From the NCBI GenBank assembly GCA_016207905.1, contig JACQZC010000004.1:1-45701 (forward strand): a stretch of 45,701 nucleotides of DNA. The letters run 5' to 3'. A program made the position numbers and the translations under genes. The notes beneath the pieces were generated by a model. That model was not told the DNA's origin. It ran no database searches and saw only the letters and a program-made list of their open reading frames with translations. Positions 3 through 34,281 of the stretch are shown in pieces. The stretch is from Nitrospirota bacterium (GTDB lineage Bacteria; Nitrospirota; Thermodesulfovibrionia; Thermodesulfovibrionales; JdFR-86). How positions within the stretch are numbered: the first letter of the stretch is position 1; each line of letters begins with the position of its first letter.

Positions 3-95
3 GCTGATGCTACGGATGACAAAACAGCTTATTTGAACAAAATGAAAAAGATTGAACGCTCTAACGATAAAAATGAAGATATTTCAAGCACTTAG
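3..95 (+). CDS. possible 3' end of a gene entering from the left edge
   Basis: One plus-strand frame is open from the window edge to a TAG at 93-95 and encodes about 30 very hydrophilic residues (Lys, Glu, Asp and Asn rich), like the tail of a larger protein. The other plus frames and the minus frames carry early stops here. No domain can be recognised, so the product is unknown. The call rests only on an open frame of modest length. Confidence 0.35.
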   Translation, partial: ADATDDKTAYLNKMKKIERSNDKNEDISST

Positions 96-172
96 GGAAT
101 TCAAATTGAACCTATAAAAAAAGGAGATGGCAACGATTTTTTATGGTGACAGGAGAGGGCATCATAAAGGAA

Positions 173-188
173 TGTTCCACGTGGAACA
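173..188. other. parS centromere site (ParB-binding palindrome)
   Basis: TGTTCCACGTGGAACA is a perfect 16-bp palindrome. It equals the chromosomal parS sequence recognised by ParB, in the C/G variant of the TGTTTCACGTGAAACA consensus. ParB loads here and spreads, organising the origin region and recruiting SMC/ParA. The site lies 13 bp beyond the ntrX stop, in a non-coding gap. parS sites cluster near oriC, which suggests this part of the chromosome is in the origin-proximal domain. No parA or parB gene is seen in the window. Confidence 0.9.
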
Positions 189-201
189 ATTTATGGAACA
201 T

Positions 202-1554
202 TTATCCCGAAGGGTCGGGATTTATACCGAGGGTCTTAATCTTTCTATGGAGGTTACTTCTTTCTATGCCTAAGGCATCTGCTGTTTTTGAGACATTCCA
301 GTTGTTTTGAGCAAGCTGATTCAACAGAAAATCCTTTTCAAAGGCATCCTTTGCCTTCTTAAGGTTTTTATGCGTTAAATAATCTGTCCTGAGCGTTTCA
401 GGGAAAAGGATGTCTTTTCCCTCTATAACATCACCCGATGTCATTATCACGAGTCTCTCTATCGTGTTTTTAAGCTCCCTTACATTCCCATGCCAGTGTT
501 GTTCCATGAGGCTTTTTAATGCAGGCTCAGAGATTTTCTTAGGAGGTTTTCCGTATTCCTTAGCTATTGTTTCGAGGAAGTATTTCACAAGGAGAGATAT
601 ATCCTCTTTCCTTTCTCTTAATGGTGGTATGGATATGGGTATGACATTTAATCTAAAGTAGAGGTCTTCCCTGAATGTGCCTTTTTTGACCTCCTCTTTG
701 AGGTCTTTGTTCGTTGCGGCTATGACTCTCAGGTCTACCTTTATGTTCTTACTACCTCCGACCCTTTGAAATTCCTGTGTCTCCAATGCCCTGAGGACCT
801 TTGCCTGAGTCTCAGGGGACATATCTCCAATCTCATCTAAGAAAAGCGTGCCTCCATCTGATACCTCGAACTTTCCCTTCTTTTTCTCGAATGCACCAGT
901 GAATGAACCTTTTTCATGTCCAAAAAGCTCTGATTCGATAAGCTCATGAGGGATTGCCGCACAGTTTACCTCGACAAAAGGCATTTTAGCTCTCGGAGAA
1001 AGTTCATGAATCAGCCTTGCCGTAAGCTCCTTTCCAGTGCCTGACTCTCCGAATATAAGGACAGTGCTTTTGGTTTTTGAGACTATTTCTATCTGGCTTA
1101 AAAGTGCTTTTATAGCAGTGCTTTCTCCTACAAGCCGATGTTTTTCCATGAGAGACTCTCTGAGGGCTTTGTTTTCAGCCTCAAGCCTCTTTTTCTCGAG
1201 TGCCCTTTTAGCGGTAAGTGTAACCTTTTCCAGAGAAAGGGGCTTTTCTAAGAAATCATAGGCACCCATCTTTACTGCCTTAACTGCAAGCTCTATATTT
1301 CCATGTCCTGAAATCATAATCACAGGAAGCTCTCTATTTATGGAGCGAATCTCTGCAAGTGCCTCGATGCCATCCATTCCCGGAAGCCATATATCTAAAA
1401 AAACAATGTCGAGAGGTTGCTCCCTGATAGCAGGAATGGCAGATTCTGCTGACTCCGAAAGAAGCACCCTATAGCCTTCGTCCTTTAAGATATCAGAGAG
1501 GCTTTCTCTTATACCTGCCTCATCGTCTACTACTAATATGACAGGCTCAGACAT
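202..1554 (-). CDS. ntrX: NtrX-like sigma-54-dependent response regulator
   Basis: This is a transcription activator that hydrolyses ATP to open sigma-54 promoters when phosphorylated by its partner kinase. Domains: receiver (about residues 4-118, acidic pair Asp10/Asp11, phospho-acceptor Asp54, Lys104); AAA+ domain with Walker A GESGTGKE (169-176), sigma-54 contact loop GSFTGA (216-221, Ser in place of the usual Ala), Walker B LFLDEIG and arginine-finger region; C-terminal Fis-type helix-turn-helix (about 405-447). The 450-residue length is normal. Its ATG overlaps the 3' end of ntrY by 8 bp, so the two are translationally linked. The cognate signal is unknown; NtrYX pairs have been tied to nitrogen, redox and envelope control in other bacteria. 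A candidate sigma-54 promoter lies in the window at 9324-9339. Confidence 0.92.
205..220. repeat. short palindrome TCCCGA-N4-TCGGGA at the 3' end of ntrX
   Basis: TCCCGAAGGGTCGGGA forms a 6-bp hairpin that supplies the last codons of ntrX (residues PDPSG) just before its TAA. The same arms with different loops recur at 40061-40076 and 45508-45523. It may act as a weak terminator-like hairpin or be a member of a small dispersed palindrome family. Confidence 0.5.
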
Positions 1555-3577
1555 TTAGTACCTCCTTTATGGGAAGCTCAACTATAAAAACACTTCCATG
1601 TGGCTTATTGTCAGAGACCCTGATACTTCCTCCGTGCTCTGCTATAATCCTGTCTGCAATGGCAAGTCCAAGTCCTGTGCCGTGTTTTTTCGTAGAAAAA
1701 TAAGGAAGGAAAAGCCTTTCTTTATCCTCATCCTTTATGCCAGGGCCATCGTCTGCTACATCCAGATGTAGCCTGTTTTCGGCATAGTCGGTCTTTACCA
1801 TCACTCTGATATTTCCGCCTTCTTCCATTGCAGAGACTGCATTGTCAAAGAGATTCATAAAGACCCTCTTGAACTGCTCGACATCAACCTCTGCGATTGC
1901 ATCATTGCCCTCTATAGTTATGGAAAGGTTTTTATAAGCCCTGTAGAGACTTGCGACCTCTTCTATTACGGGCTTTATCCGAGAGGGATGCTTTTTTATC
2001 TCAGGCATCTTTCCAAATCTCGAGAACTCATCTACGAGCCTTTTTAATCCCTCCACCTCTTTTATTATAGTATTTGTCGAGCGCTCAAATATCTGGCTAA
2101 AGTCCTTATCTTTTTCCAGCCATTTCTTAAGCATCCTTTCTGTAGAGAGCCTTATTGGTGTAAGGGGGTTTTTTATCTCATGTGCGATTCTTCTTGCCAC
2201 CTCCTGCCATGCAAGCACCCTTTGTGCCTTAATAAGGTTTGTAAGGTCGTCAAAGACAACTAAGACTCCGAGGTGTCCTTCTCCTGAGTCCCTGAGCCCT
2301 GTGAGTGAGACCCTTAGTATGATATTTCTTGAGCCAATCGATAGAGTCACCTCTTTTTCAACTGCCTTTAGCGTAAAAAGGTTTATGTCCTTTATGAATG
2401 CCTTGAGCTCCTCCGAGTCAATCCCCTCAAGAATACTGCTATAGTCTTTTCCAATGACATCGTCCTTTGAGAGCCCTAATATATTCAGGGCAGAGAGGTT
2501 TATTGTTGCCACCCTTCCTTTTGCATCTAAGAATATGACTCCGCTTTGGATATTACCTAAGATATTTTCGAGATAAAGCCTTCTTCTGTCTGACTCCGTG
2601 AGGGCTCCTTGGAGGGACTCCTTGCCCTCGCTTATCTCTTCCACCATGCGGTTAAAAGAGGTAATCAAAAGCCCGATTTCGTCTTTGCTTTTAGTTTCTT
2701 TGACCCTCACCGAAAGGTCGCCTCCGGCCACCTTCTCTGTTGCCTCTGCAAGGTATGTAACAGGCTCTGTAATCCTGCCTGCTATTCTGAGGGAAGCCCA
2801 GATTGACAAAAATATAATCATAAGGCTTGAAAAGCCCAATATTAAAAGAAAATTCAGCTTAATAGGCATGCTCCATGACTCAATCTGTATATAGTCCTCA
2901 TATGTCTCCTTAATCCTTTGCACATTCTCCGATATATCAGATGGGATAAAGGACTCTACGACAATGACTCCTTCTTGTTTTGAAGGCACTACTGCCCTTA
3001 CCATGTCTTTGCCCTTAAAAGAGATGACCTCTACAGAGGAAGAGCCTGAAAATGCAGTTCTTACAGGGTCTGTGGCATCACTTGGCATTTCCCTAAGCCG
3101 TATGACCTTATATGACGGTGGAAGGCTTATTCCTTGTCTTGCCATCTCAGCATACTCAAGTGCTCTTTTCCTTTCAAACTCATAAAGGGCTTTTGCAATC
3201 TCGAAGCTTTCTTCAACAGGCTTTCTCATGGAGGGGCTAAAGAGTCTCTCTATGTAATTAGTGCCAAGACCACTTGCAGTTAAAAACAAAAGCACCGAAG
3301 GAATGGCGGTAAGGACAACGAAAAACAAGACTACCTTTGTCTTAAACCTGTAGCCTGGCACCTTGCGTTTTCTTTCCATATAAAGGTCTCTCAGGCTTCT
3401 CAGAACAAAAAACATGAGGACCAGAAGCCCTGCTATGTTAATGTTTAAAAGCAGGAAGAAAATGAGCTTTTTAGAAAGAGATGCCTCTATACTGACAAAA
3501 AACAGCTCTACAAGAGATGCAATTGCCACAAAACCAATGATACCGAGAACTATCAAAATGGGTTTCTTCACCTTCAT
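1547..3577 (-). CDS. ntrY: NtrY-like membrane sensor histidine kinase
   Basis: This 676-residue sensor kinase most likely phosphorylates the adjacent NtrX. The N-terminus has three closely spaced hydrophobic helices (about 6-30, 34-62, 82-105). A periplasmic region follows, then a fourth membrane helix near 240-265, a HAMP linker (about 265-318), a PAS domain (about 330-440), the HisKA dimerisation domain with phospho-His in RRIAHEIKNPLTPIR (around residue 465) and a HATPase_c domain with the N box (NLFDNAV), DDGPGIK and GTGLGLA. The ATGA overlap with the upstream DUF4390 gene and the 8-bp overlap with ntrX make a three-gene operon. Length and domain order match NtrY rather than the cytosolic NtrB. 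Confidence 0.92.
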   Translation of the reverse strand: MKVKKPILIVLGIIGFVAIASLVELFFVSIEASLSKKLIFFLLLNINIAGLLVLMFFVLRSLRDLYMERKRKVPGYRFKTKVVLFFVVLTAIPSVLLFLTASGLGTNYIERLFSPSMRKPVEESFEIAKALYEFERKRALEYAEMARQGISLPPSYKVIRLREMPSDATDPVRTAFSGSSSVEVISFKGKDMVRAVVPSKQEGVIVVESFIPSDISENVQRIKETYEDYIQIESWSMPIKLNFLLILGFSSLMIIFLSIWASLRIAGRITEPVTYLAEATEKVAGGDLSVRVKETKSKDEIGLLITSFNRMVEEISEGKESLQGALTESDRRRLYLENILGNIQSGVIFLDAKGRVATINLSALNILGLSKDDVIGKDYSSILEGIDSEELKAFIKDINLFTLKAVEKEVTLSIGSRNIILRVSLTGLRDSGEGHLGVLVVFDDLTNLIKAQRVLAWQEVARRIAHEIKNPLTPIRLSTERMLKKWLEKDKDFSQIFERSTNTIIKEVEGLKRLVDEFSRFGKMPEIKKHPSRIKPVIEEVASLYRAYKNLSITIEGNDAIAEVDVEQFKRVFMNLFDNAVSAMEEGGNIRVMVKTDYAENRLHLDVADDGPGIKDEDKERLFLPYFSTKKHGTGLGLAIADRIIAEHGGSIRVSDNKPHGSVFIVELPIKEVLNV

Positions 3578-17101: not shown

Positions 17102-17110
17102 GTCCCTACA

Positions 17111-17267
17111 CTCTCCCTTCATGGAGGGGAATTATTTTTTTATATAGGGGGGACAAAGTCCCCCTAACCCCTATTCTGTAAAGGAGATTCTTTTTAGCGG
17201 TATGGGGGCTTTGCCCCCATACCTTAAGACAGGGCGGGTGGGTGGGGAAATAAAATAACTTTTTATA
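17111..17267. repeat. structured intergenic repeat, copy A
   Basis: This fills most of the 318-bp gap 17030-17347. It holds, in order, a CTCC/GGAG hairpin followed by an AT-rich tract, the hairpin GGGGGACAAAGTCCCCC, a 28-bp variable part, the hairpin ATGGGGGC-TTT-GCCCCCAT, the G-tract GGGCGGGTGGGTGGGG (17232-17247) and the tail AAATAAAATAACTT. Every element recurs in the same order and orientation at 20168-20379. The open frames through it are not believable proteins. Confidence 0.85.
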
Positions 17268-18088: not shown

Positions 18089-18484
18089 TTACTCTCTCAG
18101 ATTCCTTAGTATCTGTGCAAAACCGGATTTACTTAGCTTTCCTCTTGCAAGTGAAATCATAGCATCATACAACCTATGTTCAGGGTCGGATATGCTTATA
18201 CCGTTCATCTCAAGGAAGACTAAGGCAGAGGCAAGTGCTGTTCTTTTATTTCCATCAATAAATGGGTGGTTTTGGCATATGTGGAAGGCATAGGCAGAAG
18301 CCATTTCATAAATATCATTATGAAGAAACCTTCCATGAGAAGACGCATATGGCATTGCCACTGCCGAACTGAGAAGATTCATATCTCTTACTCCCTCTCT
18401 ACCACCATATCTTCTTATATGGCTGGCATGTATTTCTACCACTTCGGCAAGGGATAAAAAGACAATCTTTTTGGGGTGCTTCAC
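18089..18484 (-). CDS. doc: Doc-type Fic toxin (death on curing)
   Basis: This 131-residue Fic-fold protein carries the Doc motif NHPFIDGNKRTALASALVFLEMNG. Doc kinases phosphorylate elongation factor Tu and stop translation. N-terminal (VVEIHASHIRRYGGREGVRDMNLLSSAVAMP) and C-terminal segments match Doc. The start codon is GTG, two bases after the antitoxin stop and without its own ribosome-binding site, so the toxin is probably made by coupled translation, a usual way to keep it below the antitoxin. Confidence 0.92.
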   Translation of the reverse strand: MKHPKKIVFLSLAEVVEIHASHIRRYGGREGVRDMNLLSSAVAMPYASSHGRFLHNDIYEMASAYAFHICQNHPFIDGNKRTALASALVFLEMNGISISDPEHRLYDAMISLARGKLSKSGFAQILRNLRE

Positions 18485-18486
18485 TG

Positions 18487-18711
18487 TCAGGAGAGCTTTT
18501 TCAGGGTCTCACCATGCAATCTGTTGACCCTCGCAAGTGCAGTCTTAAACCGCTTCTCTCTTTTAGCATCTTCAACAGGTGAGACAATCAGGTTTTTTCC
18601 ATCAGTTGAAATCTCAAGCGGTGTGTCCATATCAACCCTTAAAAGCTCCAGTATCGGCTTGTCTATTATAAGGGCTGCGCTATTGCCATGAGAAACCAGC
18701 TTCTTTAGCAT
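18487..18711 (-). CDS. AbrB/MazE-type antitoxin partner of Doc
   Basis: The 74-residue protein begins MLKKLVSHGNSAALIIDKPILELL, the swapped-hairpin AbrB/SpoVT fold, followed by a charged C-terminal tail (EDAKREKRFKTALARVNRLHGETLKKL) that should wrap the toxin. The start 12 codons upstream (18747) is less likely: AAGGAGG lies just before the ATG at 18709-18711. It is the first gene of the pair and likely autorepresses the promoter. Confidence 0.85.
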   Translation of the reverse strand: MLKKLVSHGNSAALIIDKPILELLRVDMDTPLEISTDGKNLIVSPVEDAKREKRFKTALARVNRLHGETLKKLS

Positions 18712-18724
18712 CTTTTTTACCTCC

Positions 18725-18764
18725 TTGTATACACATTGTATCACCAATATCTGATGCCTGTCAA
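18725..18764 (-). promoter_or_regulatory. toxin-antitoxin promoter and candidate operator
   Basis: Minus strand: perfect TTGACA (18759-18764), 18-bp spacer, TG-A-TACAAT (-10 at 18735-18740). On the plus strand TTGTAT occurs at 18725-18730 and 18736-18741, one helical turn apart and overlapping the -10, which fits an antitoxin operator. The promoter lies inside the 3' end of the protease remnant. Confidence 0.6.
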
Positions 18765-20167: not shown

Positions 20168-20379
20168 CCCCTCCCTTCATGGAGGGGAATTATTTTTTTA
20201 TAGGGGGACAAAGTCCCCCTATCCCCTAGTCATTCCCGCAAGCGAAGCGCGTCGGGAATCCTTCTTAAAAGAAAGATGGATTCCGAACAAGTCGGAATGA
20301 CAATAATAGGGGGGATGGGGGCAAAGCCCCCATGCCTTAAAATTGGGTGGGTGGGTGGGAAATAAAATAACTTCTTATA
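20168..20379. repeat. structured intergenic repeat, copy B
   Basis: This is the second copy of the element at 17111-17267, same orientation, filling most of the gap between alaS and tyrS. It contains the hairpin CCCCTCC/GGAGGGG, the hairpin AGGGGGACAAAGTCCCCCT, a nested paired-hairpin element (20229-20301), the hairpin ATGGGGGCAAAGCCCCCAT, the G-tract GGGTGGGTGGGTGGG (20345-20359) and the AAATAAAATAACTT tail. It is intergenic, with no coding potential. Confidence 0.85.
20229..20301. repeat. paired-hairpin repeat (GTCATTCC...GGAATGAC) nested in copy B
   Basis: The element has terminal inverted repeats GTCATTCC/GGAATGAC. It consists of two hairpins (ATTCCCG...CGGGAAT and ATTCCGA-ACAAG-TCGGAAT) joined by CCTTCTTAAAAGAA. 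A relative with the same architecture and linker lies at 45404-45462. It looks like a REP/BIME- or MITE-type repeat sitting inside the larger repeat. Confidence 0.8.
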
Positions 20380-20436
20380 CAACATTTCAGTCTCATATGT
20401 ATCTGAACTTATTCAGCAGAAGAACCCTCTAAAGGT

Positions 20437-23073
20437 TCAAGATTTTACTGTCTTGACTATATCGTAGACCCTGTTGATGGCAGTATCCAGAGCATTAATG
20501 TCCTTTGTTCCGCCCTGTGCAAGCTCCGGCTTGCCTCCTCCTCTTCCACCAGTCATTTTAGCCACTTCCCTTAGAATCTTATCCGCACTGAGCTTTTTCG
20601 TAAGGTCTCCTGTAACCATAGAGAGGAATGACGCCTGATTGTCCGTTACAGAGGCAAGCACTATTACGCATGAGCCCAATCTGTCTCGAATACTGTCTGC
20701 GAGTGCTCTCAGGTCTTTCTGGGAAAGCCCATCTACTTTTTCAGAGACCACTTTGATTCCGCTAATCTCCCTTGCTTTTTTGACAACCTCTGTGGAGATG
20801 TCTTTTACAGCCACCCCTTTTGCCTTTTCTTTTTCTTTCTGGAGCTCACGAAGCTCTTCGATGAGAGCCCTTACCTTCTCCAAAGGAGCATCAGGGGATT
20901 TAACGAGAAGGGCAATCTTGAGAAGCTCATCTTCTTTTTCCCTCATGTAAGCAATCGTTTGTTTTCCTGTAATAGCCTCTATCCTTCTAATGCCAGATGA
21001 AACAGAGCCTTCTCCAAGAATCCTGAAGGCGCCTATATCTCCTGTTGCCCTTACATGGGTTCCTCCACAAAGCTCCATGCTTACCCCGGGAACCGTTATG
21101 GTCCTAACCCTTTCTCCGTATCTTTCTCCAAAAAGCGCAATTGCACCTGAGGAAAGGGCATCCTTTATATCCATCTCAAGGACATTTACAGGATGATTTT
21201 GAAGTATCCAGCTATTAACCATGTCTTCTACTACATTAAGCTCGTCTCTGCCGAGAGACGAGAAATGGGTAAAATCGAATCTTAGCCTGTCAGATCCAAC
21301 GAATGAGCCTGCCTGTTTGACATGCTCGCCTAATGTGGCACGAAGTGCTGACTGAAGAAGATGGGTTGCAGTATGGTTTCGCATTATGGCATGTCTTTTA
21401 TCTATGTCAACCGAACATCTTACCTTCATCCACACCTGAAGGGTTCCCTTCCTGAGCTTTATGTGGTGGCTTATAAATGAATCGAGAGGGCTTTTTGTAT
21501 CAAGCACATCAGCCTTGAATGTATCGGAATAAATAACTCCTGTATCTCCTATCTGACCACCTGATTCTCCATAAAATGTGGTTTTATTGAGGAAGACCTC
21601 TCCTTCCTCGCCAACACTAAGCTCCTTGACGACATTACCTGCCTTAAGTATTGCCTTAATAACTGCATCGGATTCGGTAGTCTCATAGCCTAAAAACTCT
21701 GTTTTACCTGTCTCTGAAATCAGTTCCCTGTAGATGGAGGATAAAGCAGTCTCCTCTCCAACCCATGATGCCCTTGCCCTTTCCCTCTGGATAGACATTG
21801 CCATGTGAAACCCATCTTCGTCTATGGAAAAGCCCAAGTCCATTGCTATGTCCCTTGCAAGGTCAAGTGGAAATCCATATGTATCGTAAAGCCTGAATAC
21901 CTCTTGCCCGGGGATAATGGTTTTCTTTGAAGCCCTAAGGGACCCTATGAGGCTATCCATCAAAAGCATTCCCTGCTCTAATGTTTTACCGAATCTCTCT
22001 TCTTCGAATCTGATGACCTTTACTACTGTTTCCCTTTCCTCTTCCAGCTCCGGATAAACACCTTTTAGGGATGTAACCACAGGGTCTGTGAGCCTGTAAA
22101 GCAGAGGTCCTTCTTTTCCGAGAAGTCTTGCGTGCCTTCCTGCCCGTCTTAAGATTCTTCTAAGCACATAGCCTCTTCCTTCGTTTGAAGGCATAATGCC
22201 CTCTACGATAAGAAACGAGATAGCCCTGATATGGTCAGCTATAACCCTGATGGAGGCATCTGTGTCTGGGCTTTCACCGTATGTTACACCTGTATTTGCC
22301 TCAATCGAGGAGATGATTTCCTTAAAAATGTCCGAATCGAAGTTATTGTTTTTCCCCTGAAGAACTGCGGAGATTCTTTCAATGCCCATTCCTGTGTCTA
22401 TGCTCGGTTTTGGAAGGGGCGTGAGGGTTCCGAATTCATCCCTGTTAAACTGCATGAATACTAAGTTCCATAGCTCTAAGAACCTGTCGCAGTCGCACCC
22501 CACCTTACAGGTCTCCTTGCCACAGCCTGCATCAGGTCCCTGGTCTATTATTATCTCAGAGCAAGGCCCACATGGACCTGTGTCAGCCATCTGCCAGAAA
22601 TTGTCCTTTGCAGAAAGCCTTACGATTCTTGAGAGGGAAAGCCCTGTTTTTTCCTGCCAGAGCCTTTCTGCCTCATCGTCTTCCTCGTATATGGAGACAT
22701 AAAGTTTATCCTTTGAGATCTGAAATACGCCTGTCAGGAGTTCCCATGCATACTCTATTGCCTTTTCTTTGAAATAATCTCCGAATGAGAAGTTTCCAAG
22801 CATCTCGAAAAATGTATGATGCCTTTTTGTATGGCCTACATTTTCTATATCACTGTGTTTTCCGCCTGCCCTCAGACACTTCTGGCAGGACACTGCCCTT
22901 TTGTAAGGGCTTTCCTCATCTCCCAAAAACACAGGCTTAAACCGAACCATTCCTGCATTAGTAAAAAGAAGCGTTGGGTCTCCTCGTGGAACGAGGGATG
23001 CACTTGCCACTACCTCATGCCCCTTGCTTTTAAAATACTCTATAAAGGTCTTTCTGATTTCTGAGCTTTTCAT
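20437..23073 (-). CDS. alaS: alanyl-tRNA synthetase
   Basis: A class II synthetase of 878 residues, full length. Aminoacylation core: FTNAGMVRFKPVFLGDE, QKCLRAGGKHSDIENVG, TRHHTFFEMLGNFSFGDYFK. Editing domain: HTATHLLQSAL (HxxxH) and CGGTHV zinc ligands. The C-terminal DHHA1-type domain ends in GRGGGKPELAQGG. The first seven codons (MKSSEIR) are duplicated at 25961-25981 on the other side of the RM unit inserted immediately upstream. No ribosome-binding site is visible; the original upstream sequence was displaced by the insertion, so expression may rely on read-through or on sequences carried by the RM unit. Confidence 0.97.
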   Translation of the reverse strand: MKSSEIRKTFIEYFKSKGHEVVASASLVPRGDPTLLFTNAGMVRFKPVFLGDEESPYKRAVSCQKCLRAGGKHSDIENVGHTKRHHTFFEMLGNFSFGDYFKEKAIEYAWELLTGVFQISKDKLYVSIYEEDDEAERLWQEKTGLSLSRIVRLSAKDNFWQMADTGPCGPCSEIIIDQGPDAGCGKETCKVGCDCDRFLELWNLVFMQFNRDEFGTLTPLPKPSIDTGMGIERISAVLQGKNNNFDSDIFKEIISSIEANTGVTYGESPDTDASIRVIADHIRAISFLIVEGIMPSNEGRGYVLRRILRRAGRHARLLGKEGPLLYRLTDPVVTSLKGVYPELEEERETVVKVIRFEEERFGKTLEQGMLLMDSLIGSLRASKKTIIPGQEVFRLYDTYGFPLDLARDIAMDLGFSIDEDGFHMAMSIQRERARASWVGEETALSSIYRELISETGKTEFLGYETTESDAVIKAILKAGNVVKELSVGEEGEVFLNKTTFYGESGGQIGDTGVIYSDTFKADVLDTKSPLDSFISHHIKLRKGTLQVWMKVRCSVDIDKRHAIMRNHTATHLLQSALRATLGEHVKQAGSFVGSDRLRFDFTHFSSLGRDELNVVEDMVNSWILQNHPVNVLEMDIKDALSSGAIALFGERYGERVRTITVPGVSMELCGGTHVRATGDIGAFRILGEGSVSSGIRRIEAITGKQTIAYMREKEDELLKIALLVKSPDAPLEKVRALIEELRELQKEKEKAKGVAVKDISTEVVKKAREISGIKVVSEKVDGLSQKDLRALADSIRDRLGSCVIVLASVTDNQASFLSMVTGDLTKKLSADKILREVAKMTGGRGGGKPELAQGGTKDINALDTAINRVYDIVKTVKS

Positions 23074-23077
23074 AGGG
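23053..23077. repeat. direct repeat flanking RM unit 1, alaS-side copy
   Basis: This 25-bp stretch covers the alaS start codon and first seven codons. It matches 25961-25985 at 24 of 25 positions in direct orientation, with partial similarity (TAAG) continuing beyond. The two copies bracket the RM unit and look like a target duplication. Confidence 0.85.
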
Positions 23078-23140
23078 GTAAGTTCCTAATTCTTACCATG
23101 CCTTGCACGCACACAGATTGTCTCCTGAGTATTATGTGCA

Positions 23141-23341
23141 TTATAGGCCCAATGGTTCTTTCAATTCATCAATACTAACTGCTTTATAGTTTATCTGAAA
23201 TAAAGCCTTACACCCAATGCACTGACATTTCAAGCTTATCCACTCGTCATCGTATAATTCCTTATAAGAAATATAATCATAAAATTTACAAACAGGACAT
23301 CTTACTCCCATGGCTTCTATAAAGGTAGACTGAGATGACAT
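23141..23341 (-). CDS. small zinc-ribbon protein, third gene of RM unit 1
   Basis: A 66-residue protein with Cys pairs CPVC (about 15-18) and CQCIGC (about 40-45) separated by about 20 residues, a zinc-ribbon arrangement. Its ATG lies one base after the endonuclease stop, so it is co-translated with the RM genes. The function is unknown; it may be a DNA-binding accessory or a regulator of the RM unit. It does not resemble the helix-turn-helix C proteins that control many RM systems. The stretch from here to alaS (23078-23140) has only a small inverted repeat (GGTAAG/CTTACC). Confidence 0.6.
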   Translation of the reverse strand: MSSQSTFIEAMGVRCPVCKFYDYISYKELYDDEWISLKCQCIGCKALFQINYKAVSIDELKEPLGL

Positions 23342-23342
23342 A

Positions 23343-24515
23343 TCAATCTAAATTCCATTCTTTTAATCTATATTCCTTTTCAAAGCTCCCAAATGAGTGT
23401 AAACTAATTTGATATAAATCTTCTTTCAGTTTATATACGATAACAGTATCAGCATCTCTTTTTCTTAGATGTTCCAAAGTGGCTACCTCGCCTTTTTTTA
23501 ATCGCAACATATCCCTTAAGAGCCATTTCCCCAGTGCCACATTTGGATCAGTCATAAGAGCTTTGTTATTTTCTTGACATACTTTTGCTGAAAATTCCCT
23601 ACCGTCTTCTGTCCTAAGTATAAATTTATGGTCCCGCTCAGGGAAAAATCCCGGCTTGCTTTTATGAACTATTCTGGGAATAGGGATATACACCTCATCA
23701 TAGTCTCGTGGTCTACCGCGTGCATGCCATTGATTCAGACCACTTCTTTTGGGGACTTCTCCTTCTCTTAAGCTATATAGGGGTAGAATTACATATTCCT
23801 TAGTTTCAAGAAGAGGAAATTCTGCATCTCTTCTTTCCCCTATTAATTCCTTTAATGCATCGGTCAACGATTTATCATCAATTTCAACTGGTATTTCTAT
23901 TATATCTAACGGCTTAACGGTTAAGAACCCTTTATACAAAGTATGCTTACTTAAATTGAAAAGGTAATCATAATGAGCATCGCTGAAATTCAATATGTGT
24001 CCTGAAGTTTTTCTTGATTTTTTTATCCGTACCGATTTTTCATCAATTTGTCTCATAGGACATTCATGTATAAAAATCTTACCAACATCCCGGATGATAT
24101 AGTGATACAAAATATTATCAAGGTTAAAGTCTTTTACCGTAGTTTCAAGGCGTTTATTTCTGTAAAACGTAATTTGTTTAATTAACTCAGACGCATCTTT
24201 GTAATTTAGAGGATATTTTTCCCTATCGTCAAACTCCGCTATTTTTTCAAATCGTAATTCTCCATTACTAACAAATGTCTTTATCCCTATTCCATTATCA
24301 ATCTTAACGGCATCCACAGAACAGTCTTTTCTGCTAACATTTCTAGCTATAAAGCTTTTACAGAATATGTTTTCAGCTGTTCTGTAATGAATATAAGGTT
24401 TTTTACTTTCGCTAAAAAGCCTGCTGGCCTGTGATACACCGTGCAAAAGCTTCTTATACTTCTGCTTGTTTTTCTCTTCTTGTGTTGGATAAAAATACCT
24501 GAATTCCATATTCAA
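23343..24515 (-). CDS. probable type II restriction endonuclease with NgoFVII-like C-terminal domain
   Basis: The 390-residue protein is encoded by the gene right after a DNA methyltransferase, overlapping it by 4 bp (ATGA). The C-terminal part (about 255-385: GLNQWHARGRPRDYDEVYIPIPR, FFPERDHKFILRTEDGREFSAKVCQENNKALMT, LGKWLLRDML) resembles the B3-like DNA-binding domain at the C-terminus of NgoFVII-family enzymes. The N-terminal part lacks a phospholipase-D HKD motif. It instead has DAVKIDNGIGIKTF (Asp68, Lys79) with Glu48 upstream, compatible with a PD-(D/E)XK active site. This is read by eye, so nuclease identity is inferred mostly from context. Local base composition is clearly more A/T rich than alaS or recA. 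Confidence 0.7.
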   Translation of the reverse strand: MNMEFRYFYPTQEEKNKQKYKKLLHGVSQASRLFSESKKPYIHYRTAENIFCKSFIARNVSRKDCSVDAVKIDNGIGIKTFVSNGELRFEKIAEFDDREKYPLNYKDASELIKQITFYRNKRLETTVKDFNLDNILYHYIIRDVGKIFIHECPMRQIDEKSVRIKKSRKTSGHILNFSDAHYDYLFNLSKHTLYKGFLTVKPLDIIEIPVEIDDKSLTDALKELIGERRDAEFPLLETKEYVILPLYSLREGEVPKRSGLNQWHARGRPRDYDEVYIPIPRIVHKSKPGFFPERDHKFILRTEDGREFSAKVCQENNKALMTDPNVALGKWLLRDMLRLKKGEVATLEHLRKRDADTVIVYKLKEDLYQISLHSFGSFEKEYRLKEWNLD

Positions 24516-25843
24516 TTCACCTTTTCCAGAACAACCAAATGTTCTGTTTTCATTCTTTCATCTTCTATCCCAGAGGCTGGGTTTATCCTTGATTGGAACA
24601 TAACTCTTGATACTATTCTGTCAATATATGTAACCCTGTGTTTCCACCCAAATTTTTTTAAATGCTCAACAATAATATCATCAATAGGTATAGAGAAATT
24701 TCTTACTTTCGCTGGCCCTACAAAAATACACATATACCTTATTACATCTTCTCCTAAGTCAGTAAATATTTTCAATATGGCATGAAAATATCTCTCATAT
24801 AACTCTATTAAATGAGGTTCCTTTATTTTGTCCCTGTATATGTGGTAAGTAGGTGAATATATTTTTATTCTTTTAACTTGTCTATAAGGGATTTCCTTCT
24901 TGCTTAGCTCCTTTATTTGATTTTCTTTATGGCCAAGCCAGAATAGTCCAAGCTTGGTAGATCTGATATATTCCTGTGCCTGTAGATAAGGTGGTGAAGT
25001 AATCAGAATATCAACTTTATGTTTTAATTTTAAATCGAATATATCCTTTCCAGATTCCAGCGTATATTCTACTTGCTTATGATTAAAATGGCTATGTTCC
25101 TCAACCCGTTTTATAAGTAGGTTTATTTGTTTTTCCAAGCTACGGTAAAATTTTTCTCTCCAATCATTCTTCAAGAGGTTTTTAATTTTTTCTTTTGAAT
25201 TCCTTGACTTATATAATTTGTGCACCTTCTCATCGCTGAAAGAGAAATACCTTGTTACTTTGAGTAATGGTATTAAAAGCACATATTTAGATTCATCCGT
25301 TAATGAATGGACAAATCCCCATGCTCTTGAAAGAATAGGGATAAACTCGTCAGGAAACCAATAACTTAAATTAGACCATTTTGGAATAAACTCCCCCTGA
25401 GAATTTTTAATTTCATTAATTAACCTTAAAACATCTATCTTAGGGTTTTTCATGGTCGCAGTGTCATGGATTATATTTATTATTGGATTTAAATCCCATA
25501 GCTCATAATTATATCCATACATCTTTGACACCACACCAACAGTCCCGTAACCTGCAAAAGGGTCAAATATTTTCATGCCTGGTTTGGCGTATTTTTTTAA
25601 TACATAGGCTATCACCTGAGGTATAAACTTTGCAGGGTACTGGTAAATGGCAAAAGTTCCGTATGTCGTTGATGGAATTTCAGGAATTGTGTTTCTAAAA
25701 AGTATAAGAACCTTTTTAGATGAATTTCGGACATTATTTTCCTCATTTTCTGCCTCCATTATCTCCTCATAAGATGGAAACTCATGTGTGCCAAACATAG
25801 TTGCCTGCTTTGTTATTTGTTCCTTTACTTTGTTTTTAATCAT
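24512..25843 (-). CDS. DNA methyltransferase of RM unit 1
   Basis: A SAM-dependent amino-methyltransferase of about 443 residues. Motif I is FDPFAGYGTVGVV (about residue 95), and motif IV is ITSPPYLQAQEY about 170 residues later. TSPPY-type motif IV indicates N4-cytosine or N6-adenine methylation; the motif order with a long insert between I and IV suggests a target-recognition region in between. Target sequence unknown. A TTG six codons upstream (25861) is in frame, but GAGAGG lies 6 nt before the ATG at 25841-25843. It is the first gene of the unit and A/T-rich, like the rest of it. Confidence 0.88.
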   Translation of the reverse strand: MIKNKVKEQITKQATMFGTHEFPSYEEIMEAENEENNVRNSSKKVLILFRNTIPEIPSTTYGTFAIYQYPAKFIPQVIAYVLKKYAKPGMKIFDPFAGYGTVGVVSKMYGYNYELWDLNPIINIIHDTATMKNPKIDVLRLINEIKNSQGEFIPKWSNLSYWFPDEFIPILSRAWGFVHSLTDESKYVLLIPLLKVTRYFSFSDEKVHKLYKSRNSKEKIKNLLKNDWREKFYRSLEKQINLLIKRVEEHSHFNHKQVEYTLESGKDIFDLKLKHKVDILITSPPYLQAQEYIRSTKLGLFWLGHKENQIKELSKKEIPYRQVKRIKIYSPTYHIYRDKIKEPHLIELYERYFHAILKIFTDLGEDVIRYMCIFVGPAKVRNFSIPIDDIIVEHLKKFGWKHRVTYIDRIVSRVMFQSRINPASGIEDERMKTEHLVVLEKVN

Positions 25844-25921
25844 AAAGCCTCTCTTTAGCAATCTCCAAATTTTTGTGTTAAAAGCTTAAACAAATCTCTC
25901 CTTTTTATCAACTGATATGTG

Positions 25922-25981
25922 CTATCTGATTTTTATCTTCCAATCACAGATCCCTCTTTGTCTGATCTCTGAGCTTTTCAT
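25922..25981 (-). pseudogene. duplicated 5' end of alaS
   Basis: Starting at an ATG at 25979-25981, the minus strand encodes MKSSEIR exactly as in alaS, then departs (QRGIC...) and stops at TAG (25922-25924). It lies 10 bp after the stop of the small lipoprotein gene, which is where alaS would have begun before the RM unit inserted. Confidence 0.75.
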
Positions 25982-25985
25982 AGGG
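25961..25985. repeat. direct repeat flanking RM unit 1, far copy
   Basis: Partner of 23053-23077, with 24 of 25 bases identical. It contains the displaced copy of the first alaS codons. Confidence 0.85.
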
Positions 25986-25991
25986 CTAAGG

Positions 25992-26351
25992 TTATTTTTT
26001 TCGGGTTACATGTTTTTCGAGGTTCGGGTCATTAGACACTATGTCTGTAAGCTCGGCTTCTGTAAAGGTAAGCGTTGTCTTATATGGCAGAGGCTCAAAG
26101 CCTTTATAGACCCACTCTTCACGCACATGCCCGTCTTTTTCGGGTGCAAGAACCTTGACCTTAGATGGCGCTCCCCACGAATACCTGACCTGTTGGTGAT
26201 TCATGCCTAACGATATTGCTCTCTGTTTTATCTGCTCCTGAACTTCTGTCGGAAATGCCTTTAGCTCATAAGGCGAATACCTTACAGCCTGTGCACAGCC
26301 CGAAACCAAAAAGACAACCGCAATAAGCCCGTAGTAAAATACATTTCTCAT
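25992..26351 (-). CDS. small SmpA/OmlA-like lipoprotein
   Basis: A 119-residue protein with a lipoprotein signal peptide (FLVSGC) and a short domain KQRAISLGMNHQQVRYSWGAPSKVKVL...EEWVYKG that follows the SmpA/OmlA (BamE-like) pattern GM...V...WG.P....EEW.Y. It is probably an envelope lipoprotein; a BAM-complex role is only an analogy. Its ATG overlaps the recX stop (4 bp). It originally sat directly upstream of alaS. Confidence 0.72.
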   Translation of the reverse strand: MRNVFYYGLIAVVFLVSGCAQAVRYSPYELKAFPTEVQEQIKQRAISLGMNHQQVRYSWGAPSKVKVLAPEKDGHVREEWVYKGFEPLPYKTTLTFTEAELTDIVSNDPNLEKHVTRKK

Positions 26352-26803
26352 ATCCTTATCTCCTCCTCGCTTAATTTAAGAGCCTTTCTTATTGTCTGTG
26401 AAGAATAGCCCTTTCTTGCCAATGCACCCGAGAGCTTCTTTACTGTAACAGAATAAGGGTATTCCCTCAATGTCTTCATTTTTTTATTAATCAGGGATAA
26501 GGCAGATGGTAGTTCATCGTAGTCCGATATTGCAGTCTCGACATCCTGCCTTTGAATCCCCCTTTGTCTAAGAAATTGTTTTGCGCCTTCTTTGCCTAAA
26601 AGCTTTCTGTCAGAGGCATGCCTTCTAAGGTTTGAGGCAAGGGACAGGTCATCGAGGTATCCATACCCTTTAAGATGCTCTATAGTCTTTCTGATGTCAT
26701 CGTCAGGGAAACCCTTCAGGCTAAGCCTATGCTCAAGCTCCTTTTGACTTCTTGCCCTATAGCTTAAAAGTCTATAGGCATACATCAGGGCATCGAGGGA
26801 CAT
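26348..26803 (-). CDS. recX: RecX regulatory protein
   Basis: RecX modulates RecA filaments. The 151-residue protein has three helical repeats (AYRLLSYRARSQKELEHRLSLKGF, IEHLKGYGYLDDLSLASNLRRH, AKQFLRQRGIQRQDVETAI) and a last one, KLSGALARKGYSSQTIRKAL, as in RecX. Location downstream of recA, with pilT between, supports the call. The gap to pilT is 4 bp. Confidence 0.9.
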   Translation of the reverse strand: MSLDALMYAYRLLSYRARSQKELEHRLSLKGFPDDDIRKTIEHLKGYGYLDDLSLASNLRRHASDRKLLGKEGAKQFLRQRGIQRQDVETAISDYDELPSALSLINKKMKTLREYPYSVTVKKLSGALARKGYSSQTIRKALKLSEEEIRI

Positions 26804-32321: not shown

Positions 32322-33023
32322 TTACCGTAATTTTAGTCTTGCGACTTCTGCTTCTATCTCTCGTACAACTTCTTTATTTTTGATTTTCTCTTTTTCACAA
32401 AATATGATAAAAACTTTACCACCAAATCGTTCAGTAAATTCCTCAAAACTTGCTTTCATCCTTTCGCTTACTGAATAATTCCCGAAGTTCGACTGCGCAG
32501 TGATTGGTTTTATTTGAATCCCAAAGGCTTTGTCTCCAACCCAGCCAAGATAGTCAATGTCTCCAGCATGATCAAGTTCCGGGTCACTTTCTTCAAATCT
32601 AATAGCAGGAAACTTTTTAGCGAGATAATCATTAACAACAGACTTTTCTCTTATGAATCCATCATATGTCCTATGGATAGTTACTTCATAAACAAAGTCT
32701 ATGCAATCTTGTAAAGTGACCTGACTAAACGCTTCTGTCCATTCAGGAATAACTACTTGAGTAATTTTTTCATAAAGCCTTTGACCAAGTTCCGTCAGAA
32801 TTTCTTTCGTAACCTTTATTGGTGTTTTATTCTTTGTGAAGGCTTTTTTAAAATAGAACGATTCCCATTCTTTAAGTGTTTTCGGCTGACATTCACGAAT
32901 TAAAGCCATAACAGCGCCAACTTTTTTAGGTCTAGTCAGTTGATAAGTATGGCTCGCATAGTTTAATACCTTTTCTTTTTTGCCGAAGGCTTTGGCAACC
33001 TTCTTAATTTCAGATTTGGGCAT
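32322..33023 (-). CDS. MjaI-like type II restriction endonuclease
   Basis: The 233-residue protein follows a methyltransferase gene with a 14-bp overlap. It has a PD-(D/E)XK-like core, ELDHAGDIDYLGWVGDKAFGIQIKPI (near residues 148-175), of the form D...D-(x)n-QIK, where Gln takes the place of the Glu/Asp. Its overall layout (N-terminal helical part TRPKKVGAVMALIRECQPKTLKEWESFY) fits the MjaI family, whose known members cut CTAG. Target in this organism is inferred, not shown. It ends at TAA just 12 bp before the aldolase ATG. Confidence 0.72.
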   Translation of the reverse strand: MPKSEIKKVAKAFGKKEKVLNYASHTYQLTRPKKVGAVMALIRECQPKTLKEWESFYFKKAFTKNKTPIKVTKEILTELGQRLYEKITQVVIPEWTEAFSQVTLQDCIDFVYEVTIHRTYDGFIREKSVVNDYLAKKFPAIRFEESDPELDHAGDIDYLGWVGDKAFGIQIKPITAQSNFGNYSVSERMKASFEEFTERFGGKVFIIFCEKEKIKNKEVVREIEAEVARLKLR

Positions 33024-34281
33024 TGGCTTCTCTCGAAATGGCTATAAATTTATGTTTATACTTAAAATCAGTTTCATTGGCCACCTGCACCAAGCCGTTT
33101 TTAATTAAATAAGCATTAATAAAAGTCTTATTTTTCAAATACAGGTAACACAATAAATTCCCTTCCTCATCATATTTAGTGCTGTCATATTTCATAAAGA
33201 CCTTTTGCCCCCTTAGTTTTTCCGAAAGGAATCTTACGGCTTCTCCATTTATTTCTTTTTTTCCTTTTATGCCGATAAGCCTGACCCTCAGGCCGTTATT
33301 GAGTACCAGAAGCTCAGAATTAATTACATGTTTTACCGAATAGTAGGTTTCGCGGCTATAGTCTGAATGGTCTATTTTTGAGCCGAACATTAATTTCTTA
33401 GGGTCAATCTTTTTATCGAACTTAACAGGGTCTTTAAAAACATATGGAAGTTTGTTTATTTCTTCTTTGAAGTTCAGGTTAAGTTTTTCCTGTTTTATGA
33501 TTTTAATATCGGAGGCTTTCAGCTTTGATTTTATTGCCGGCAGGAAGTCTTCATTAATCTCATAGCCCATAGAGTTTCTATCAAGATTCTCAGCCGCAAG
33601 GCAAGTTGTCCCGCTTCCAAGGAATGGATCAAGAACTGTATCACCGGCAAAGCTGAACATCTTAATCAGCCTTTTAGGGAGTTCTTCGGGGAATACTGCA
33701 AGATGCTTTTCCTGCCGTTTGCCCGGGAAATTCCAATGACCGGAAAAATACTCATTCCATTCCTCAATAGTCAGTTTTGATTTCTTTTTTACCTCTTTAC
33801 TCACCTTAGGGGGGTCGCCAAGTTTTTTAAATACAAGTATGAATTCATAATCGAGCTTTAATATCCCATTCCGGGGATAAGGAAACGAACCCATTATGGT
33901 AGCCCCGCCCGTTGTGTTACAGGTTGTCACCTTTTGCCAGATAATTGCGCCCATATAATCAAAGCCTATAGTTTCGCAAAACTTAATTATTTCTTCTCGA
34001 ATTGGTATAACCTTATACCTGCCGTAATATACCGAGCGGGCAAACTGGTCTCCGATATTGATGCACAGGCGGCAACCCTTATGTAAAACCCTACGGCATT
34101 CGTTCCAGACAAGGTTGAGATTGTTGATATATTCTTCATATGTATCGTTAAAGCCTATCTGGCTTCTATTCCCGTAGTCCTTTAACTGCCAGTATGGTGG
34201 AGAGGTAATAATAAGATGAACGGATTCATCTATTATTTCGTCCATCTCCCTGCTGTCACCTAAGATTATTTTTATATTCAT
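33010..34281 (-). CDS. N4-cytosine/N6-adenine DNA methyltransferase fused to a degenerate SNase-like domain
   Basis: Residues about 1-255 form a beta-class methyltransferase: motif IV LIITSPPYWQLKDYG (near 27-41) comes before motif I VLDPFLGSGTTCLAAENLDRNSMGYEI (near 215-240). Residues about 300-423 resemble a staphylococcal-nuclease fold (LLVLNNGLRVRLIGIKG, EAVRFLSEKLRGQKVFMKYDSTKYDEEGNLLCYLYL, INAYLIKNGLVQVAN, HKFIAISREANA). The usual DTPE after RLIG is replaced by KGKK, and the R of GR-LAY is Asn, so nuclease activity is unlikely. It is 17 bp after the alcohol dehydrogenase stop, with no promoter of its own. It should protect the MjaI-like enzyme's site. Confidence 0.82.
   Translation of the reverse strand: MNIKIILGDSREMDEIIDESVHLIITSPPYWQLKDYGNRSQIGFNDTYEEYINNLNLVWNECRRVLHKGCRLCINIGDQFARSVYYGRYKVIPIREEIIKFCETIGFDYMGAIIWQKVTTCNTTGGATIMGSFPYPRNGILKLDYEFILVFKKLGDPPKVSKEVKKKSKLTIEEWNEYFSGHWNFPGKRQEKHLAVFPEELPKRLIKMFSFAGDTVLDPFLGSGTTCLAAENLDRNSMGYEINEDFLPAIKSKLKASDIKIIKQEKLNLNFKEEINKLPYVFKDPVKFDKKIDPKKLMFGSKIDHSDYSRETYYSVKHVINSELLVLNNGLRVRLIGIKGKKEINGEAVRFLSEKLRGQKVFMKYDSTKYDEEGNLLCYLYLKNKTFINAYLIKNGLVQVANETDFKYKHKFIAISREANAQI

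Follow-up and report, generated by a model that had tools for sequence, protein, structure and literature searches.

Restriction-modification (RM) systems can insert into chromosomes with long target duplications of variable length, about 100 bp (PMC3874152; PMC3031569; PMC1643837), and an earlier note on the DNA described here had rightly stated this of other RM units. As related second-hand in these later papers (PMC1643837, PMC3031569, PMC3874152), such a duplication was first reported in Helicobacter pylori, and the class is attributed to Nobusato et al. 2000 and Furuta et al. 2010. Its members lack mobility genes and lie between long direct repeats whose length varies; in relatives, the empty site holds a single copy. 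The draft genome at the centre of this work bears on the way in which such small, non-mobile defence and addiction modules get into chromosomes, since it has at least nine of them with readable junctions.

Here we describe an RM unit inserted at the start of the essential gene alaS in a Nitrospirota genome (G000). The window, by which we mean the whole stretch of DNA that was analysed, comprises 45,701 nucleotides of contig JACQZC010000004.1. The unit shows RM genes bracketed by repeats, single-copy empty sites in relatives of other genera, and repeat lengths that vary, and by these features it falls within the described class of RM insertion with long target duplication.

An RM unit at the start of alaS

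A repeat search of the window recovered a pair of direct repeats, identical at 28 of 30 positions, that spans from base -9 relative to the alaS start codon to codon 7 (Table 1). The earlier note had given the pair as 25 bp with 24 identities, which is exact as far as it goes. The pair scores 24, against a maximum below 18 for pairs spaced 500-5000 bp apart in 60 simulated windows matched to the real one in dinucleotide content, and its identity far exceeds the chance level. The copy on the alaS side is the true start of the gene, as had been proposed: it opens the intact 878-aa ORF, and the AlaS proteins of relatives align from the identical Met. The far copy, also as proposed, encodes MKSSEIR and begins 10 bp past the stop of the lipoprotein gene, the same position that alaS occupies in uninterrupted relatives; its frame runs for 19 amino acids to a stop well before the methyltransferase gene. 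Two differences separate the copies, one silent and one non-coding, and these alone cannot separate the models weighed below.

Table 1. Features of the alaS locus in the window, and modules elsewhere in G000 and G001 that are bracketed by direct repeats
Feature	Location	Strand	Flanking repeat	Basis
alaS, intact, downstream of insert, 878-aa ORF	20437..23073	-		ORF; relatives' AlaS
alaS-side repeat copy, with working alaS start codon	23053..23082	-		repeat alignment and ORF
Inserted DNA, 2878 bp, G+C 0.32-0.36	23083..25960	-		composition; absent in relatives
66-aa protein, possible zinc ribbon (CxxC pairs)	23141..23341	-		sequence; sub-threshold zinc-ribbon matches only
Predicted type II restriction endonuclease, NgoFVII family, 390 aa	23343..24515	-		Pfam PF20731 1.2e-14; PADLOC REase_II 1.1e-80
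DNA amino-methyltransferase (N6_N4_Mtase; TSPPY motif), 449 aa	24512..25861	-		Pfam PF01555 6.7e-08; PADLOC MTase_II 1.4e-27
Putative 19-codon frame from remnant alaS start into insert (MKSSEIRQRGICDWKIKIR)	25922..25981	-		sequence
Lipoprotein-side copy of alaS start (remnant), 30 bp	25961..25990	-		28/30 against 23053-23082
BamE-like lipoprotein gene, native upstream neighbour of alaS	25992..26351	-		Pfam; synteny
recX, conserved syntenic marker	26348..26803	-		synteny
RM genes	G000, upstream of secD		42 bp	
GmrSD + DUF4160	G000, dgt start, repeat beginning at ATG		85 bp	
TumE/HVO_A0114	G000, selB start		48 bp	
HEPN/nucleotidyltransferase (HEPN/MNT)	G000, leuA end		33 bp	
AF2212/PIN + regulator	G000, alcohol dehydrogenase (ADH) end		59 bp	
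DUF4258 with short partner	G000, queF end		at least 65 bp	
ParE/antitoxin	G000, nnrD end		43 bp	
PIN	G000, ompW-like gene end		89 bp	
HindIII-like RM unit	G001, not clearly gene end		77 bp	
BsoBI-like RM unit	G001, not clearly gene end		41 bp	
HEPN gene	G001, leuA end		103 bp	

The insert is poorer in G+C than the DNA outside it (0.43-0.46). With neighbouring methyltransferase and endonuclease genes of recognised families, it is by prediction a type II RM system of the NgoFVII family, and Pfam and PADLOC back the identities that the earlier note had given to both genes. The methyltransferase has an alternative ATG start at 25843; the endonuclease has a B3-like DNA-binding domain at its C-terminus (Pfam) and is about 40% identical to annotated NgoFVII-family enzymes on plasmids. 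The third gene had been called a zinc-ribbon gene; its product has CxxC pairs, and all of its zinc-ribbon matches are below threshold. The contents end there: no integrase or transposase gene lies within the insert, as had been noticed, and the repeat search recovered no inverted repeat pairing its two ends, leaving it without the marks of an integrase-dependent element (an integrase) or of a transposon or insertion sequence (a transposase, terminal inverted repeats). The nearest relative of the endonuclease in the phylum (41% identical; L046 of G290, 12-3042) adjoins glnA. Its partners there are a 5-methylcytosine methyltransferase and a Vsr-like gene, a combination which suggests that the endonuclease family swaps methyltransferase partners.

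The empty site in relatives

Across the 176 genomes of the order Thermodesulfovibrionales that were compared, the order pilT-recX-lipoprotein-alaS is conserved, and the gap between the lipoprotein gene and alaS normally runs from -4 to a few hundred bases. The insert is missing from about 125 genomes that have the two genes together, and only in G000 and G001 were genes seen between them. An uninterrupted recX-lipoprotein-alaS junction, which the earlier note had proposed to look for, is thus found throughout the order, in other genera only: the closest genome compared with G000 belongs to another genus, and a search with a three-sequence lipoprotein profile found no genome of the same genus. 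That note had also named two outcomes as contrary to an insertion, and neither was seen, since the 28 relatives without the RM genes have no second alaS start upstream (the best candidates have 10-15 mismatches in 30 positions) and the RM-bearing G001 has the duplication. The RM unit is inserted into the lipoprotein/alaS junction with alaS kept whole; the intact ORF and the order-wide synteny uphold the claim that the gene was not destroyed. A 227-bp gap in G018, considered as a decayed stub, was rejected as a repeat element.

A second insertion at the same base

G001 (Thermodesulfovibrionales bacterium C1_metabat.bin.51), which represents another genus of the same family, carries a different and unrelated RM pair at the lipoprotein/alaS junction. 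The sequence TAAATAATTATGAAAAGCGCGGACATAAGAAA occurs twice there, after the lipoprotein gene and at alaS, with 32 of 32 positions identical. The left edge of the repeat is base -9 in both genomes, and the right edges are +21/+23. The RM pair is split across two contigs, which join in frame inside the methyltransferase. About one-third of positions differ between the 30-bp targets of G000 and G001, while the copies within each genome are 93-100% identical, and from this the two insertions look like independent events, or ones whose copies were later homogenised. The frame that opens at the remnant alaS start of G001 ends in an ATGA that overlaps the methyltransferase start codon, an arrangement through which the unit may borrow alaS translation signals.

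Gene-end repeats around other modules

Methyltransferase loci number about 14 in G000, about 10 in G001, and 0 or 1 in four other members of the family. Long direct repeats were sought in 781 kb of G000 (less than half of the genome), in 138 kb of G001 around methyltransferases, and in 400 kb of G003, and the resulting list was sorted by inspection; G000 and G001 are draft assemblies. The 781 kb of G000 hold eight further defence or toxin-antitoxin (TA) modules between duplicated gene ends or flanks (Table 1, with the modules of G001). Repeat lengths are 30, 32, 33, 38, 41, 42, 43, 48, 59, 65, 77, 85, 89, 95 and 103 bp, and the orientation of the module, by inspection, is that of the host gene in about 11 of 13 modules. 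The RM insertion at alaS is one instance of a recurrent entry mode for defence and TA modules. Homologous HEPN genes occupy the 3' end of leuA in two genera, each with leuA-end repeats of its own (L083 7064-7453 and L067 2576-2965), and as far as sequence can tell this gene end is a second shared landing site.

Two more repeat pairs of G000, at gene ends or flanks, surround genes with no obvious role in defence, namely a porin with an ArsR-type regulator (L112 5440-8015) and a TPR protein (L106 11984-14268). The 400 kb of G003, a genome with one methyltransferase, contained no module-bracketing repeats, and its pairs were paralogues and a dispersed repeat. In the closed, one-contig G142, RM genes are flanked by a gene-end repeat of 60 bp; an unbiased 400 kb of the same genome contained no TA stubs. 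In the closed G016, a second copy of an MjaI-like methyltransferase gene's start follows shortly behind the partner endonuclease gene (L138 9547-9589 and 11405-11447). Among the pairs discarded were one in uvrA (L083), an internal duplication, and those in L092 and L096, probably paralogues; queF of G002, taken up as a further stub, proved to be a contig overlap, and the yraN-dgt adjacency was unusable as an empty-site test, relatives having other neighbours.

The window itself holds a second RM unit between two core genes (32322-34281; an MjaI-type endonuclease and a methyltransferase fused to a staphylococcal-nuclease-like domain) and a Doc/Fic-like toxin with an AbrB-like antitoxin that adjoin tyrS (18089-18747). 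No flanking repeats were found around either. MjaI-like RM units related to the former occur in the closed G016 and G142. Copies of a dispersed intergenic repeat with GC-rich hairpins (17106-17267 and 20171-20385; at least three copies in the genome) flank an mgtC-like gene, the TA pair and tyrS.

Differences between the copies

Across 11 coding repeats and 233 codons, 26 of the codon changes between the two copies are silent and 22 are replacements. Random change predicts 24% silent (P = 7e-6 for the observed 26/22), and about one-third silent is expected when silent drift of the working copy is allowed (P = 0.009). The signal is carried mainly by queF, ompW, leuA of G001, dgt and selB; the ADH, C40, leuA (G000) and nnrD copies are more like ordinary decay. 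At queF, 40 codons show 9 silent and 2 replacement changes, and the mismatches are patchy, with 14/57 upstream against 2/63 at the end (P = 8e-4). In relatives native queF lies next to trpF, and so does the remnant here; on this ground the copies seem to be two functional alleles or lineages that have met, not a copied target. Silent, patchy differences of this kind would suit an imported gene end, or later overwriting, better than a copied target in decay. The earlier note took the second alaS copy for a target duplication. The mostly silent, patchy differences across the set speak against plain copying and decay, and overwriting by alleles may also have produced them.

How the modules may have entered

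Directly observed are an inserted unit with its repeat, relatives in which the site is empty, another case in G001 that starts at the identical base, and a pattern that recurs across the genome. The account that we favour, tentatively, over a true target duplication is that DNA carrying a gene end recombined in, and we infer both the recombination route and the incoming gene end. A horizontally acquired type II RM unit would enter the recA-pilT-recX-lipoprotein-alaS operon on DNA that had been taken up, or on a circle popped out of another chromosome, and this DNA would already have a copy of the neighbouring gene's end. The substrate could be linear DNA with one-sided homology, or the circle; homologous recombination at the gene end would then join the module to the chromosome, so that the working gene keeps one copy and the other stays behind as a remnant next to the native neighbour. 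Entry by recombination at a gene end would mean that the gene is never broken, that no transposase is needed, and that different modules fit one gene end. We favour it on three grounds: the module can do without a recombinase, the gene stays whole, and the silent, patchy differences are accounted for. Nonetheless, 30 bp of homology is short for RecA-type recombination, the identical starting base of both alaS repeats is not predicted by recombination alone, and the silent signal comes mainly from the five repeats named above. We found no donor that combines this module with this gene end. A true target duplication would leave an identical signal if related alleles later overwrote the working gene.

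Such a duplication, followed by allele overwriting, is nearly as likely. The unit would have entered at a break whose ends lay about 30-100 nt from each other, filling of the gap would have duplicated the target, and the working gene would later have taken up alleles of related strains. This fits the published RM class with its long, variable duplications of about 100 bp (PMC3874152, PMC3031569, PMC1643837), and the repeats here likewise vary, from 30 to about 103 bp. Perfect repeats exist (G001 alaS, 32/32; C36, 41/41; C8, 77/77), and a gene end is a place that would tolerate an insertion of this kind. It requires a second process, however, for the silent, patchy differences in queF, leuA of G001 and ompW, and it leaves unexplained why two unrelated units picked one alaS base. 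The shared left boundary at -9 and the nearly shared right boundary of the two unrelated RM units are, by comparison, what one would expect of a trans-acting tyrosine-type integrase for which the alaS start serves as attachment site and the unit supplies the matching half that rebuilds the gene. Integrase elements typically rebuild gene ends, and cis-mobilizable elements without an integrase of their own are known. Yet no integrase lies in or beside the units, the sites in G000 and G001 (at least 12) would demand many specificities, and integrase genes number 4 and 5 in the module-rich genomes versus 5, 7, 5 and 2 in relatives, all of which makes site-specific integration improbable to our minds. 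The exact alaS-start sequence had no match in viral contigs. Lastly, contigs from strains with and without the unit might have been misjoined, giving a false second copy; the assemblies of G000 and G001 are fragmented, the latter being split inside the methyltransferase. Every junction, however, lies inside a contig with no N, so mis-scaffolding is unlikely, and the same alaS structure appears in two independent assemblies. The comparable gene-end repeat around RM genes in the one-contig G142, together with the lack of any in RM-poor G003, also speaks against an artefact, which we consider very improbable indeed.

Recombination at gene ends, our preferred reading, also invites a bolder and rather unlikely generalization, in which the small RM and TA modules of these bacteria would be recombinase-free mobile cassettes. 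Each would carry a short conserved gene-end copy as landing homology, leave as a circle through its flanking repeats and re-enter at the same gene end in a different cell or species without breaking the gene, with the alaS start as a shared landing site. The silent-difference test could separate a copied target from an imported gene end and is applicable to the Helicobacter cases from which the idea of long target duplication grew, and gene-end repeats could be used as a signature for finding defence modules.

Comparison with known systems

Integrase islands and cis-mobilizable elements share with the modules described here an intact gene and a gene end that is directly repeated at either flank; the modules here differ in having no integrase, many gene targets and variable repeat length. 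In natural transformation, homology-facilitated illegitimate recombination can use one-sided homology to add foreign DNA next to a gene, and in doing so can duplicate part of that gene, which would be its likeness to the present loci. ComEC is present in six of six genomes of the family. In the literature searched we found no report that describes this signature around numerous TA modules of a single genome, places unrelated RM units at one base, or applies a codon test to the copies, which is not proof of absence. Set against the RM class that the alaS case matches, the loci described here lie in a different phylum (Nitrospirota), extend to TA and GmrSD modules in one genome, include one base used by unrelated RM units in two genera, and have copies that differ largely by silent changes. 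Exact reuse of a site, the spread to TA modules and the mainly silent differences between copies are what lies beyond the known class.
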